Shown: positions 36,101 through 45,100 of the stretch, one piece after another | Layout: the number at the start of each line of letters is the position of its first letter | Position numbering within the stretch: position 1 is the stretch's first letter | Assembly: GCA_963402885.1 (NCBI GenBank) | Contig: OY727097.1 | Coordinates: 17,298,001-17,362,000, forward strand | DNA from: Antedon bifida | Lineage: Eukaryota > Echinodermata > Crinoidea > Comatulida > Antedonidae | DNA length: 64,000 nt | Reading direction: 5' to 3' | Translations under genes and position numbers: made by a program | The notes under the pieces: model-generated | Told to the model about the DNA's origin: nothing | The model's input: the letters and a program-made list of their open reading frames with translations, nothing else | Databases searched by the model: none

Positions 36101-39100
36101 GGTGCATCATGCCACTACCAGGGGCGGAGTTATTTTTTTGGGGGTTTTGCCGACCACCACTCATGAGACATGCTAGTGAGAACCCTGTTAATACTAAAAT
36201 AGTGTTTGTTTTTTAAATGCAGATTGAATTAATATTTAGTATGTGTTAATTATAGCAATGGTTGGAAACAATAAAAACCATGTCCTTTTATTGACCTTTA
36301 TGTTTACAAATTTCACACCAAGGTTGAAGGTCGTTTTACTTTCCCATTAGCCTTTAGGTAAGATGAAATGGTTAAAAAATCTATTCAAAATCCATGCTGA
36401 AACCATCAGGTTGAAGATTGAATTAATGTTGTACTGTTTAAAGTTTCTGAAAAATAAAGTTTTTTCCAACAGAACATTTCTGAAAAGGCCCCAAATTGTT
36501 TTTTATTGTATTGGCGACACCTCACGACCCCGAACTGATGAAAATGTTGTGAGCAAACAGTGATTGTGAAACCAATTTGACAATTAATCTATATTAGTTT
36601 ATTTTACACAAACATTATATTTTTATTGATGATGATCATGTGCTAAAAAAAAGGTAAGTTACTGCAAGTTTGTGCAAAAATATACCTTTTTAATCTATCG
36701 AATAGGTATCCCAATGATGCGGATTTTCATTACTGGGGTTTGAACACGTTCTTTGTGACGTGTCTTTGAAGTTAAAAATATACTATTTCTTTGTGTACCC
36801 ATAAAAATGATATGTCTGGAAAGATCTTGTTTAGGGGTTTATTTATATATATTTTAAATTTATGTTTATTAAATATTTTATTGGAAAACGCGAGTTAAAA
36901 ATGAGGTGCAAAAGCCGGCTAAAAGTAACTTGGGAAAACACTACCCATTTTCAAATCACGATCGCACAAGGTCCATAACAGGTGTTGGAGTAATTTTTGT
37001 TGCATGTTATCAGGCTTTAAATACTCTTTATTTTGATATGTAAATCGGGTTATTATTATTATGCACATCCGCCTCAAATGTCAATTTTTTTAGTGTTTCT
37101 CATTATCAAAATCTAGCAAAATCTAGCAAATTTAGTATTGAATTAATGCTAATTGATATTTCTCTTTGATAAAACTACATTGTTTTATTTGACTTTGCGT
37201 GGACCTCGTGCAAAGAGGCCAACAAGACCAACGACTGAAAAAAAAAAATCCCTACAGAAAATATCAGTGTTTACCATTTTCCTTACAGGGGGATTCATTT
37301 CTCCGCTTAGTACTAAATTACCGTCACCCAGGCAATGTGCATTGTATGCATGTACAGTATTAGCACATTAATTAATGATTGGATACCCCTGTGTTAATTA
37401 ATGATTGGATACCCCTATGGACTGTTCCATTTTCGGAACTAGTCTTATCCGCACACAAGGCATGTCAAAAAATGTCGCTTCTCATGAAATATTTGCTTCG
37501 AAACGTCAATTTCACCAATTTATTAAATTATTTAACAAGTGGAGTTAGGAAGTACCGAAGAAATTTATCCTGGCAATTATATTGAATGATAACATGTTCA
37601 AAATAAAGTTACATGAAATTGAAATTTGTTCAAATATTCCAAAATTATCTTTGGATTGAATACATCTCGGAGTCGCCAATATTAAATGAAGATTGAATTG
37701 AACGTTTATTTTTGCGGCCTAATACTTAACTTTTGCCCTAGGCTAAAAAAGAATTGAGGAAAAATGTTCACCAAATTTACAGGTTATTTTAGCCTACGCC
37801 TTTTTTTTAACTACAGTACGTCCGAAAACGATCTTATATTCTTAAAGTTAGGATTAAGAATTTCAATAAAATTATTAGGCTATCGCTCTCTGTAGAGCGA
37901 TAGCCTATTGTTATTGTCAAAGATTTCATTTTTTCTGCTCATTGGTTATCCGCACTTGGCGGATAACCCCTTGTTATTGTCAGGATCTTTTTTTTTTTTT
38001 TTTTTTTTGGTTATCCGCACTTTGGCGGATAACCCCTTGTTATTGTCAGGATCTTTTTTTTTTTTTTCTTTTTTTTCTTTTTTCTTCTTTCTTTCCGAGA
38101 ATTTTGTTGCGCGTGTATCTCAAAATCTTCCTAACATAACATTGTATAACTTTATCAGAAGATTGACCTCTATCTGAAGATGTCGTAATAAGGTTTTCGG
38201 TCCAGTCCGAGTTGCGCAGTGTAAGTTACGCGCGATTTTATGAATTTCAATGATTGATCATAGATTAAAAACCAAAAGTCATTTTGTATTGAAACTTGGT
38301 GAAAATTTAAGTCATATCAAGCGCAAACTTTCTATGGATTAAAAATGGCAGGTTGCGCAGAAAGTTACGCGCGCACGCGCGTTTAAAATTTTACCAACTT
38401 TCAAACAATTTCGACTTAAAATCACATCATACGAGCACGTAGAATTGAACAATTTGCGCGCGTTTTCGATAAACAATTTCAAAAATTTGTCAAAATCATA
38501 CCTTTTTTTAAACAGTCATAGATTCTAAACTACATGGTCAATTTTATTTTTTTTTACATATTCTGAAAGTAGATGAGTTGTAGATATAGAATCATGCATC
38601 CATTTGGCTAATCGGATATTGTGACGTCGTCGTATGGCCACTCCAATATCAAATATAGGATTTTTGTCTCTTTCGTCATAGCTCATCACATTTAATTGAG
38701 CGCATCTCTACTTATCCATATTCCATTTTCCTCAATTTTGTAATATTGTCTAGGTCAATTAATTATCTTTTACATGATTTACCATTTTTAAAATTGTGAT
38801 GACGTCATCATGTTCAAAAGCGTCAATAACTTTGGTCACTTATTTTCACCTATTCTGAACTGTATGTAGTACGTATACAGTATATAGTGTATACCGTATA
38901 TACTTTGACGTGAAGCAAAATAGAGAGCGCACTAACATTTTTTCAATAGCATAATCGTTTTTCTGTGCGCAATATTCTAACGTATGACGTGCGCGTGGCT
39001 TTTGGGCTGCGGATAACCTAACTCGTACGTAGTGACGAGTTCAAATCTAGTATTTATTTCTTTCTTTCCACCCTTCTCCCCCATTTTTTGTTGGCAGCGT

Positions 39101-42100
39101 ATCTCTAATTCTGGCCAATATAAGATTGTATAACTTTGTCATAAGATTGCCCTGTAGCTGTAGATGTGCAAGAAACTTTTTTTTATTAATTTCGAGTCGC
39201 GCAACGTAAGTTACGCGCGATTTTATGAATTTCAATGATTGATCATAGATTAAAAACCAAAAGTCATTTTCTATTGAAACTTGGTGAAAATTTAAGTTAT
39301 ATCATGCGCAAACTTTCTATGGATTAAAAATGGCATGTTATACATAAAGTTACGCGCGTTCAAAATTTTAAAATGCGCAAAATTCATTTCTAATCAACTT
39401 TCTACGCGTTTCAAGTCATTTTGAGCATTTCAAAAATTCCCACGCGTGCCCAATTTGTTTACGCGCGCGTGCGCACGTAGCGCAAAAACATCCTTTTTTT
39501 GCTTGATTTTTGTTTTTTCAGTCTTTTTTTGTAAATTTACCAATTTTCAATCAATTTCGACTTAAAATCACGTCACACGAGCACGTAGAATTGGATAATT
39601 TGCGCGCGTTTTTGATGAAAAACTTCAAAAATTCGTCAAAATTAGACCTTTTTTTAAACTGTCATAAATTCTAAACTACGTGGTGAACTTTTTTAAATTA
39701 CATATTCTGGAAGTAGATGAGTTGTATTTCTCGAATCATGCATGAATATGGCTAACCGGACATTGTGACGTCATCGTATGGCCACTCGAATATAAAATAT
39801 AGGATTTTTTTCTCTTTCGTCAGAGCTCTTCAAATTTAATAGAGCGCATCTCTACTTATCCGTATTCCATTTCCCTCAATTTTTATATAATGTCTAGGTC
39901 AATCAATTATCTTTCGCATGATTTACCATTTTTAAATTTGTGATGACGTCATCATGTTCAAAAGCGTCAATAACTTTGGTCACTTATTTTCACCTATTCT
40001 GAACTGTATATAGTACGTATAAAGATTATAAAGATTAACGGCATTTGGTATAGCCCAAATCATTTATTTCCTACCTACTGCTATAATGTAGCAGGCCAAA
40101 AAAGACTAAGTACTGATTGGCTATTTGTGATAAACAAATAGGTCCAGGGACCTATAGTATAGTATAGTAGTCATAATAATCTTTTTCTGTGTCCAATATT
40201 CTAACGTATGACGTGCACGTGGCTTTTGGGCTGCGGATAACCTAACTCGTCCGTAGTGACGAGTTCAAATCTAGTTCTATGTTCTTCTTTCTTTCCCAGA
40301 ATTTTGTTGCGCGTGTATCTCTAAATCTTCTTAACATAACATTGTATAACTTTATCAGAAGATTGACCTCTATCTGAAGATGTCGTAATAAGGTTTTCGG
40401 TCCCGTCCGAGTTGCGCAGCGTAAGTTACGCGCGATTTTATGAATTTCGCGTATTTAATTTAGATCGAAAACCAATAAACCATTTAAATTGAAACTTGGC
40501 AAAAGTTTAATTTATATCATGCGCTAACTTTCTATGGAGAGAAAATGGCATGTTCCACAGAAAGTTACGCGCGCACGCGCGTTTAAAACTTTAAAATGCG
40601 AAAAATCAATTTCTAATCAATCTATGCGTTTCATGTCATTTTAAGCATGCCAAAAATTCCCACGCGCGCGCACATTTGTACGCGCACGTGCGCACATAGC
40701 GTTAAAAACATACTTTTTTCGCGTGATTTATGTTTTTCCAGCCTTTTCTAGTAATTTTACCAACTTTTAAACAATTTCGACTCAAAGTCACGTCATACGA
40801 GCACGTGGAATTGGATAATTTGCGCGAGTTTTTGATAAAAAAGTTCAAAAATTTGTCAAAATTATGCCTTTTTTTAAACAGTCATAGATTCTAAACTACA
40901 AGGTGAATTTTATTGTTTATTACATATTCTGAAAGTAGATGAGTTGTAGATATCGAATCATGCATTGATATGGCTAACCCGATATTGTGACGTCATCGTA
41001 TGGCCACTCGAATATAAAATAGAGGATTTTTGTCTCTTTCGTCATAGCTCATCACATTTAATAGAGCGCATCTCCACTTATCCGTATTTCATTTTCCCCC
41101 ATGTTTTTATATTGTCTAGGTCAATCAATTATCTTTCGCATGATTTACCATTTTAACATTTTTTGTGACGTCATCATGTCCAAAAGCGTCAATAACTTTG
41201 GTCACTTATTTTCACCTATTCTGCACTGTATGTAGTACGTATACAGTATATAGTATATACTGTATATACTTAGACGTGACACAAAATAGAGAGCGCACTA
41301 ACATTTTTTCAATGGCATAATCGTTTTTCTGTGCGCAATATTCTAACGTATGACGTGCACGTGGCGTTTGCGCTGCGGATAACCTAACTCGTCCGTAGTG
41401 ACGAGTTCAAATCTAGTTTTTTGTTGGTCGCATATCTCAAAAACGGCAATAGCAGTTATGTTGTAACTTGGCCAGCAGATGCACGTATATATGTAGTTGT
41501 GCAACAAACTTTGGTTTAATGAAAATATGGTCGCGTAGCGTAACTACGCGCGATTTTCTGAAATTCTTAGATTGACTATAACTTGAAAACCAATAGCTAT
41601 TTTTAAATACCACTTGACACACGTATGCTTCATGTCAAGGGTCATCTTCCTGTATCATCAGCAAAATTTTGAACATTGGTCAAATTGCGCGTACGCGCGC
41701 TTTGAAAGTTAAAAATGCTCAAAATCAATTTCTAATCAACTTTCTACACGTTTCAGGACATTTTAAGCATTTCACATTTTTCAAAAAAATTTGCGTTGCG
41801 TGCGCGCTTTTGCGCACTTCGCTCGTACGCAGCCTAGAAAGTCCGTTTTTGCGCTTGATTATTATTTTTCATAGTTTTATGATATATTTCTTTCATATTT
41901 GATGAATTATGAATGCAAAATAATGACACACGTGCACGTCAAACTTTAAAAATCGTGCGCTTGAAAATTGGTAATTTTATGCAAATTTGTGTAAAAATAT
42001 GCCTATTTTGAATCGATTATAGCTCTCCGGGATGTCTGGTGACTTAATATGTAAGCAGATATGTTGTAGATATGAATTCATGCAAAATTTTTACCTCTGG

Positions 42101-45100
42101 GTTGTTGTGACGTCATCGTATGGCCACACAAATGTAAAATATAGGGATTTTGTCTCTTTCGACACAGTTCGTCACATTCAATAGAGCGCATACCGCGTAA
42201 ACGTTATCAATTTTCTTCCAATTTTCAATATTTTATTACTAAAACAATTCCTCTTTAGACTTATGAACTTTTTTTTTTAATTTGAAAAGGTCATCATTTT
42301 CAAACAATTGAATAAACGTGAGTGGTGTAAAATAAAAAATAACCGTCAACTAAACCGTTTACAATGCTAATACCGTCAACTGTTGACACTTATTAAACGA
42401 TTTTGATGCATTCCAGCTGTTCGTTACAATCGTTGTAGTGCAGCCTATTGTAGACTAAGCATAATAAATAACATGTGCGTGTTACGATGCGTTGGGCGAT
42501 AGCCTAACTCGTCAACGTGACGAGTTCAAATCTAGTTTTATATTTGTTTTTGCCAAATTGCAAATTTTAAAAACCATGAAAATGGCCAAATTTTTCTGTT
42601 GTCTTGCGTTTTAAAAAATGTTTTATTCATTCAAAATTTGTGATTAAAATACACAAAAAAAAATGACCGCATGCAAACGGCCTATCTACTGCAGCCTCAC
42701 CGGCCTGGCGCGATACTTGTCGCCACAGCCAAGTCATATTTGATTTAGCTGCATTTTATCATGTCACATATGTAAAGTGCATTTAAAACATTTATTGCAA
42801 ATGGGCATTAAATTAGCCAACATAAAAACACACAAACAAGGGTGATTAATTAAGAGATAGCTGGGAGGCTTATACCAGTAATAAACATTACAAATTAACT
42901 GAATTTCATTAATTTTTAAAGAAAATTATTCTGGTAAATGGTAAACAAAGGTGGTCAACAGATGGCGCCATTTACCTGACAGTTTATTTGAATGAAATGA
43001 AATAATCAACAGAGAGCCAAACTACTCATTTACAAACCTTCTATTTTGGAAATGGTTCATTAATGGTACATTGTTTTTACCTTATGGTTTTGTGGAGTTG
43101 CGGAAGTGGCAAACGAGGTGAGAAGCACAGAGCGGGGGTGGGTTTGGGATGGGGTGTTTCCTCCTCCCGAGCCTCAGAAAATAGATGCTTACACACTGTT
43201 TTAATAGGCTAGAGCAACTGTTTCCATCACATTTAATAACAAATGTTACGTAATGTAAATTTAAATAAATCCTTCCTTCTTACGAATAATAAACTTTGAT
43301 CGAAAAACACTTCAAACAAAATGAACATTTGGTAATGCGGTACTCTGAAAATGCCTCGATAGTGCATGTGTTGTGTAAGTGTGTTTTGATGGTCTGTTAA
43401 CCTCAGATATATACCCTACAGCCGGGAGAATAATTCAATGTAATTTAGTATACAATGATTGCAGTAATAGCCGTGTCTACAGTATAACACAAATCAATAA
43501 AACGCCAAATACGCCACACACTTTTTTTCGGCCGTTTATTTTTATCGTTTATACTGCATACCATTATTATATAAAAAAACCTTCATACGGCCGTTTATTT
43601 TTATCGTTTATACTGCATACCATTATTAAATAAAAAAACCTTCATACGCGAGAAAAAAGTTCACGATATTACACTCCACTGAGGGATGTAAATGTACCAC
43701 GCTAGCGCTTGTACACACAGAGGGCCAAGGCGGTAATTAACTGAAATGGAAAATGGTGTATTTTTGGAGCGTGATGATGTCAGCATTCACACGAGGCACG
43801 AGCTAGACAACGTGACTGTGACGCTGGTAGTAGGAGTGCGTGTGTTTTGAAAATAACTCAGTTGTGGGTATTTTCTGAAGATTTTAAATCGCGTTTTCTT
43901 TTTAAACTCTTGAATTCATAAATAGTAAATAAACTCTTAGCTCTTTCACTATGTAGGCCTGTTTAATGCTAACCCTAGGTCTAGGCCTACTCTTAATTAA
44001 AAAAGAGTCAGGTGCGTCAAATCCACGTCTAGCGACGGTCGCGGGTATGTTGCATCTTTTTTTCTTTTGAGAATTAAGGGGGGTGGCTAGCCACCCTATT
44101 CACCCCCCCACCCCCTTAGATCCGCCACTGCAATCAATCGATGGGTAAAAAATATGGGATAGCTGGAGATAGAGTTGAACATTGTTTGTCAAAAAGTTAA
44201 TTTGTTATTATTCTATTTGGTCCAATTTTTGACAACTTAATTAAAATAGGGTATACTGTACATTTTTGGGGAAATTTTACTTGGCCAAATAGCAGACTGT
44301 TGACAGCCTTTGTGATACCTCAATTCAAAACCCCTGAGCATGATACCTGGCTGTCTTGATAATTGCTTTATTCAACCGCCAAAATGTTAAACAAATAAAA
44401 TGCATTTCACCATCAGCATAAGTGGACATTTTTTCTGATGCTTCCAATTGATGATGTAAAGTTTTTCGCCTGTTTTCCAGCTTCAAGAAAAGATTTTGTT
44501 TTGTGCACTAGGTTAGGTGATAACAGCGTGTCTTCCAATTCTCAGGAAGGCTGGCTATCAATTTATTTTTTTTGCATTAAACTAAGACGATTCTTGCAGG
44601 AACCAGATTCCAGAAAGAAAAATGAAAATGAGAGACTTCCAAAATTGGTTAATTCCGATTTCCGATCAATTATCCAGGCTGTAAATGTTGAGTGCATGTT
44701 GTATTCCTGATGTCTATCACATTATGGTGACTAGTGTCAGCGTCCGGAATTCTTACAGTCATGTTTTTATATTTTAATCACAAAGACAACATACACATGT
44801 AAAGTAAGACAGTATTTACATCACAATCACGCCTCTGAATGGAAATCTCGTTTTAATTCACTCAAGTGACGTGAAAAAAACGATAGGCAAGTAACGCAAT
44901 ATCTCTACATTGCTATCGCTATATTTCGCTGTATAACTCGCACCTGTGTATAAGACGCATCCCAAACTGAGAGTAAAATATCGGTATTTTTTATATCGCC
45001 AATGTATAAGACGCACTTTATATTTCATCAAAACAATGTTTTTTTTAATTTTGAGAGGGTGCACGTCTTCACAGACAATCATATTCTATTAGTATGTATC

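Follow-up and report, generated by a model that had tools for sequence, protein, structure and literature searches.

How can a stack of transposable elements possess more 3' ends than 5' ends? The question is raised by a locus of the crinoid Antedon bifida at which the initial annotation described nested Helitron2-like elements with three 5' ends and four 3' ends. The locus lies in a stretch of 64,000 nucleotides of contig OY727097.1 (C10:17298001-17362000, hereafter the window), and was analyzed in the context of the genome, which measures 315.6 Mb. Both counts were borne out when the hairpins and exact 3' motifs of the window were enumerated. The stack is composed of three nested insertions in mirror order, here named C, A1 and A2, and of one headless body, named X. 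The explanation that we regard as probable, after already counting against it the finding that the partners of X are unrelated, is that these are non-autonomous Helentron/Helitron2-like elements which nest at pads that they carry themselves, and that X was spread by read-through accompanied by turnover of its partners.

The three hairpins do lie within 160 bases, as had been claimed. By inverted-repeat search they are perfect repeats, with arms of 14 bp in C and of 10 bp in A1 and A2, and each is followed by TTGTTATTGTCA with zero mismatches (37908, 37971 and 38037). With the leading TT included, the starts of the elements fall at 37875, 37942 and 38007, so that the first reported start of the stack, 37877, had to be corrected. 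The 3' ends, all CTAG, are at 39050, 40274, 41416 and 42535. The 3' motif ACGAGTTCAAATCTAG has four exact occurrences in the window; when up to three mismatches were allowed, shuffled sequences gave a mean of 0.54 and reached four in 0 of 100 shuffles. The proposed relationship among the four bodies was confirmed by alignment, with identities of about 65-95% (b1/b3, 88-91%; b1/b2, 85-95%; b4 against the others, about 65-77% in the longer pieces). The termini form asymmetric inverted repeats, in C between GGCTATCGC (37878-37886) and GCGATAGCC, and in the A type between GGTTATCCGC and GCGGATAACC (39009-39018 and 41375-41384). In addition, the arms AACTCGTCA/TGACGAGTT are found at 42506-42526, and shorter versions of the same arms at the other 3' ends.

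Table 1. Layers of the stack (positions in the window)
Feature	Position	Strand	Basis or context
Left part of element C, comprising TT, the 5' hairpin (37876-37907), TTGTTATTGTCA and a T-rich leader	37875..37941	+	Hairpin search; joined match to L077
Left part of element A1, comprising TT, the 5' hairpin (37944-37968) and a leader with GGATC and the T-run that serves as landing pad	37942..38006	+	Inserted in C at A^T
Element A2, complete, in the T-run of A1	38007..39050	+	5' hairpin 38009-38034; own 3' end
Body X: without 5' hairpin, begins directly after the CTAG of A2, own 3' end	39051..40274	+	Leader and junction searches
Element A1, right part: pad remainder TTCTATG..., body, 3' end	40275..41416	+	Joined A1 against uninterrupted A copies
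Element C, right part: 3' subterminal repeat GCGATAGCC (42496-42504), CTAG	41417..42535	+	Joined C against L077

The layers of the stack could be separated by joining the interrupted elements across their inserts. With the insert left out, C matched the single uninterrupted C copy of locus L077 with 96.8% identity over 1177 columns and a seamless joint at A^T. The joined A1, which is interrupted in its T-run by A2 and resumes after 40274, was 90-91% identical to seven uninterrupted A copies, the median among A-type copies themselves being 0.907. Repeated insertion of each element near the 5' end of the previous one had been suggested as the origin of the stack. For three layers this is supported by the seamless joining of the flanks of C and of A1, by the resumption of the outer elements and by the occupied D pads described below; it does not account for the fourth body, X.

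The exact limits of the elements were read from D-type leaders, whose form, GATCAATA-T(n)-CTGTATTATT, permits empty and occupied pads to be compared. The T-run consisted of eight Ts in 18 of the 29 empty D pads for which letters were shown, including all 14 of those rows at listed D1 copies. In the four occupied D pads read on both sides (L063, and the D1 pads L069, L071 and L074), the Ts were divided as 8+2, 5+5, 5+5 and 6+4, respectively, and summed to ten in every case. Because this sum, the usual eight plus TT, is constant at three different positions of the run, the insert must bring TT with it and change the target no further. Each element therefore extends from the TT and hairpin through CTAG, and the target gains nothing more, a description to which a 2-bp TT duplication is formally equivalent. 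The same boundaries agree with locus L076, where CTGTATTA|TTGG...CTAG|TTCTTCTTTC can be compared with the unbroken CTGTATTATTCTTCTTTC of L067 and L069. Among 28 left flanks without upstream element sequence, A preceded the TT in 21, and insertion at T^T (in pads) and at G^T (behind CTAG) was also common.

These features are informative for classification. The asymmetric inverted repeats with a palindromic 5' end, and the insertion into TT or T-rich sites without further change of the target, are those of the Helitron2/Helentron (HINE) type. Of the marks of canonical Helitrons, the 3' CTRR with a hairpin is present, as CTAG, and the 5' TC is not, since the elements start with TTGG or TTAG. The designation Helitron2-like fits the termini and the T-rich target; our searches did not reach an autonomous element that shares these ends.

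Across the genome, the 3' motif had 1715 exact matches (0 for the reversed control) and the generic 5' motif 777 (2 for the reversed control), and 132 close 5'-5' pairs were found (control, 0). A preferred target is the T-run that other elements have roughly 45 bp in from their 5' end, that is, a landing pad carried by the elements themselves. With such a target inside elements, new insertions nest in the same orientation. A 3' end followed by D/E post-pad sequence, the sign of an interrupted leader, was found at 246 places, and uninterrupted D leaders at 408; the former number includes some E-type leaders (L067), and the two together give no exact rate. Out of the 350 D1 copies of the genome, the 65 located on C1 or within the initial 22.4 Mb of C7 were classified as 42 empty, 21 occupied and 2 unresolved. 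(Pairing by nearness gave 22 occupied pads; C1:20215773 shares its partner with C1:20209402.) The remainder of each occupied D1 pad was found downstream, on the strand of the pad itself, at a distance of 1.26-6.4 kb, and near 1.6 kb in 12 of the 21.

The order of ends is also that of nesting. In L073, hairpins A and B are followed by 3' ends b and a, and the post-pad sequence of A resumes after b. Twenty-six stacks with at least two 5' ends could be followed as far as a 3' end, those with the first 3' end more than 2600 bases away being excluded; in 10 of the 12 that could be classed, the sequence behind the first 3' end was of the same class as the next-outer hairpin (A in 7, D in 2 and E in 1). 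A further landing point is the position immediately after a 3' end: another 5' stem was present within 30 bases of 487 of the 1715 exact 3' ends, and the spacing from 3' end to next stem was exactly two bases in 71 of 100 rows among the matches listed. The first 100 3' ends on C1 formed 29 neighboring pairs within 2.5 kb, where about 1.3 would be expected under uniformity, and 28 of the 29 were on the same strand, as would follow if a T-run target on one strand fixed the orientation. When 123 hairpins were sorted by setting, 45 lay within the T-run of a 5' end, 32 followed a 3' end and 46 were elsewhere, many of the last in D/E/F pads; since 30 of the loci in this sample had been chosen for their stacks, these fractions, which exclude hairpins within 75 bp of a locus edge and hairpins with other stems, are no genome rates.

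Some larger arrangements of 5' ends were also noted. Six 5' hairpins in a row, of families A B A A B A, precede the first 3' end in L015:1348-2881, and clusters of 5' stacks extend over 70-130 kb at C8:26672826-26741173 and C10:7471979-7605936, on one strand within each. Among 100 rows listed, six pairs of D1 5' ends were exactly 74 bases apart (C1:23227622/23227696, C7:567972/568046, C7:6631219/6631293, C7:8074785/8074859, C7:31787527/31787601 and C8:9319502/9319576), a spacing that could reflect another landing point at a fixed position or, alternatively, the copying of an element that has two 5' ends.

The three nested elements account for three of the four 3' ends, and the missing 5' hairpin, also noted in the initial annotation, is that of body X. 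This body starts with TATTTATTTCTTTCTTTCCACCC and continues with an A-like sequence, 94% identical to one A copy over 955 nt. When as many as two mismatches were allowed, its junction, CTAG|TATTTATTTCTTTCTTTCC, was found in 41 copies, distributed over 30 regions of 9 contigs; 9 copies were exact. When the 23-base leader was searched in the genome with no condition on what precedes it, it occurred at 9 places, all directly behind CTAG. No 5' hairpin precedes any exact X leader: a genome search for GGATAAC at hairpin distance returned just the same 9 junctions, where GGATAAC belongs to the 3' end of the upstream element. As a group, the exact-leader copies of X thus lack a 5' end, and X is not a doll whose hairpin vanished only in the window. 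Ordinary four-fold nesting, with the hairpin of X deleted between T-runs in the window, has in its favor that every hairpin is flanked by T-runs that could recombine; however, the exact X leader lacks its own hairpin and always stands behind CTAG, and the loss would have to predate all nine copies. With no hairpin-bearing exact X leader in the genome, this explanation was rejected for the exact-leader copies and appears very improbable. Leader variants such as CTTTCCTTCC and CTTACCTTCC indicate that the X junction has diversified, the absence of the hairpin being established for the exact-leader copies.

The 3' end of X was read in four of the five copies looked at, namely the window, C12 (L085), C8 (L086) and C10 (L087), the last two being short stretches about 1.1 kb behind the junction that were assigned to X by distance and tail motif. 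X in the window and in C12 were 98.5% identical over 1153 nt. The pad remainder behind X was of the A type in the window, C12 and C8 and of the B type in C10, and so belonged to different outer elements.

How could a body without a start be copied? Read-through, raised earlier as a possible origin of the whole stack, is retained for X only, as the leading but unproven mechanism. X would have originated from an element that had been interrupted, as its right half. A rolling-circle transfer launched from the 5' end of the element preceding X may then have missed the terminator of that element and stopped at that of X, carrying partner and X together, and newcomers inserting at the CTAG^T joint would have become the next partners. 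The partner itself stands directly behind CTAG in three of the four readable copies, L080 and L082 (in both a regular 3' end) and L079, and that of the window is in the A1 pad. In L079 (position 380) an A body is cut at an internal CTAG and followed by TT and the next element, perhaps at a cryptic 3' end.

Several results weigh against this interpretation. All six partners compared were closer to some ordinary A-type copy (0.974-0.994, among 29 controls picked by their 3' tail) than to any other partner (highest value, 0.980), and between the window and C12 the difference was 1.5% in X and 3.8% in the partner. Since partners were not inherited together with X, a simple A2+X unit is unsupported and partner turnover must be assumed. 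Furthermore, the CTAG before the L079 partner is the internal one of the cut A body and no regular 3' end, and the fifth X copy, L084, had no 3' end within the 1.4 kb fetched. On the side of nesting, two of the 12 classed remainders (L018 and L078) misfit the next-outer hairpin, 14 of the 26 stacks were unclassed, and the remainder classes were written after the data were seen. Finally, two B units in L071 share 98.8% identity, more than any between-locus pair, which looks like local duplication.

This last observation favors a rival in which recombination, slippage or segmental duplication within arrays gave rise to the additional tail and multiplied X without any special transposition; some X sites are likewise clustered, four of them near C8:24.95 Mb. 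The dispersal of X junctions over so many regions and contigs speaks against it, as do the differing outer elements behind X and the similarity of partners, which was flat toward the junction with no rise, and we consider such an origin distinctly unlikely. Three narrower possibilities were also examined. Copying of A2+X intact as a single unit was weakened by the closeness of partners to ordinary A copies, recombination inside the conserved tail was rejected in view of the flat partner similarity, and concatemers as a general cause found just one of four within-locus B pairs (that of L071) above all between-locus pairs, in a comparison whose filter missed the second unit of L069.

Alternatively, X may be mobile by itself, the transposase cutting the upstream CTAG^T as if it were a start, transferring TATTT...CTAG and joining it at the CTAG^T of another element. 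The invariable position of the exact leaders, the partners unrelated by descent and the frequent use of CTAG^T as a landing point all suit this idea. On the other hand, the upstream end in the nine exact copies was of the A type in eight and of a related type in one, and never of the B type, even though the C1 sample contains many B ends. We know of no 3'-end to 3'-end reaction for Helitrons, and self-mobility seems to us somewhat unlikely. Read-through of the neighbor's terminator is kept as the leading mechanism. More tentatively, X can be viewed as a family of headless rolling-circle units, with body and terminator but no start, comprising at least 41 junction copies and several leader variants, which would be maintained only by using the start of the neighbor in front or by 3'-end to 3'-end transfer. 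Such a family would parasitize non-autonomous transposons and would depend on the self-carried landing pads that bring correctly oriented neighbors.

The enzyme acting on these ends could be encoded by Rep/PIF1 frames of the same genome. A Rep domain is present at 39 places and a PIF1 helicase domain at 48, in shared open frames of up to 3182 amino acids, 11 of the 39 Rep rows being in frames of at least 3000 amino acids; frames of about 3100 amino acids lie, for example, at C8:19816895 and C11:11264147. Helentrons proper are marked by an endonuclease domain in the Rep/Hel protein; pieces of 1199 amino acids around Rep matched only Helitron_like_N, DUF6570 and a weak second Rep. The 20 Rep loci that were read had no proper element end within 1.5 kb; L058 had one three-mismatch end match, without CTAG. 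In the autonomous element, the frame may lie antisense to the ends. Among the 12 Rep loci with a listed stack within 70 kb, which form only about seven clusters (e.g., C10:7512334-7583787, C11:11231037-11264743 and C8:18234427), the Rep frame was on the strand opposite to the 5' stacks in 11 and on the same strand in 1. Upstream of the stack in the window, two adjoining 26-bp direct repeats, 96% identical, are located at 37368-37419.

Self-nesting and end-bypass have already been published. In the open-access literature, judged from titles and the beginnings of abstracts, we found no headless family, 5' T-run pads or count of pad occupancy. Pads make the order of insertion readable, the outermost layer being the oldest, so that stacks record which family was active when, and terminator bypass, so far measured with a reconstructed bat element, becomes countable in a genome as it occurs in nature. 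Should X indeed be headless, an end signal alone is enough for a transposon to persist.

The bat element, Helraiser, is described (PMC4778049) as having a CTAG 3' end, a preference for AT targets with TT among the alternatives, and circles with direct end joints, and its hairpin terminator was bypassed in about 11.7% of events in the assay. The elements of the window share the CTAG 3' end with Helraiser and canonical Helitrons, but differ from them in the 5' TT and hairpin instead of TC, in the asymmetric inverted repeats and in the strong use of T-runs. Closer are the Helentrons and the HINEs/DINE-1, for which sections of Thomas et al. (2014; PMC4067079) give palindromic subterminal inverted repeats, a 3' palindrome, a T-rich TT target left unmodified, high-copy non-autonomous families, and tandem arrays ascribed to bypassed termination. 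All these features of termini, target and large non-autonomous families recur here; unlike in those sections, the internal T-run of the element is itself a frequent target in A. bifida, and a body without a 5' end recurs. The Helitron2-type FoHeli elements of Fusarium, in the portions consulted of Chellapan et al. (2016; PMC5148889), combine asymmetric inverted repeats, self-insertion and multiple 5' ends with one 3' end, and for three tandem copies in Metarhizium acridum double insertion into the 5' end or rolling-circle copying was proposed. The first three of these traits are found here as well, whereas the reverse case, more 3' ends than 5' ends, recurs in 41 junction copies in A. bifida, where in addition the pads could be counted throughout the genome.

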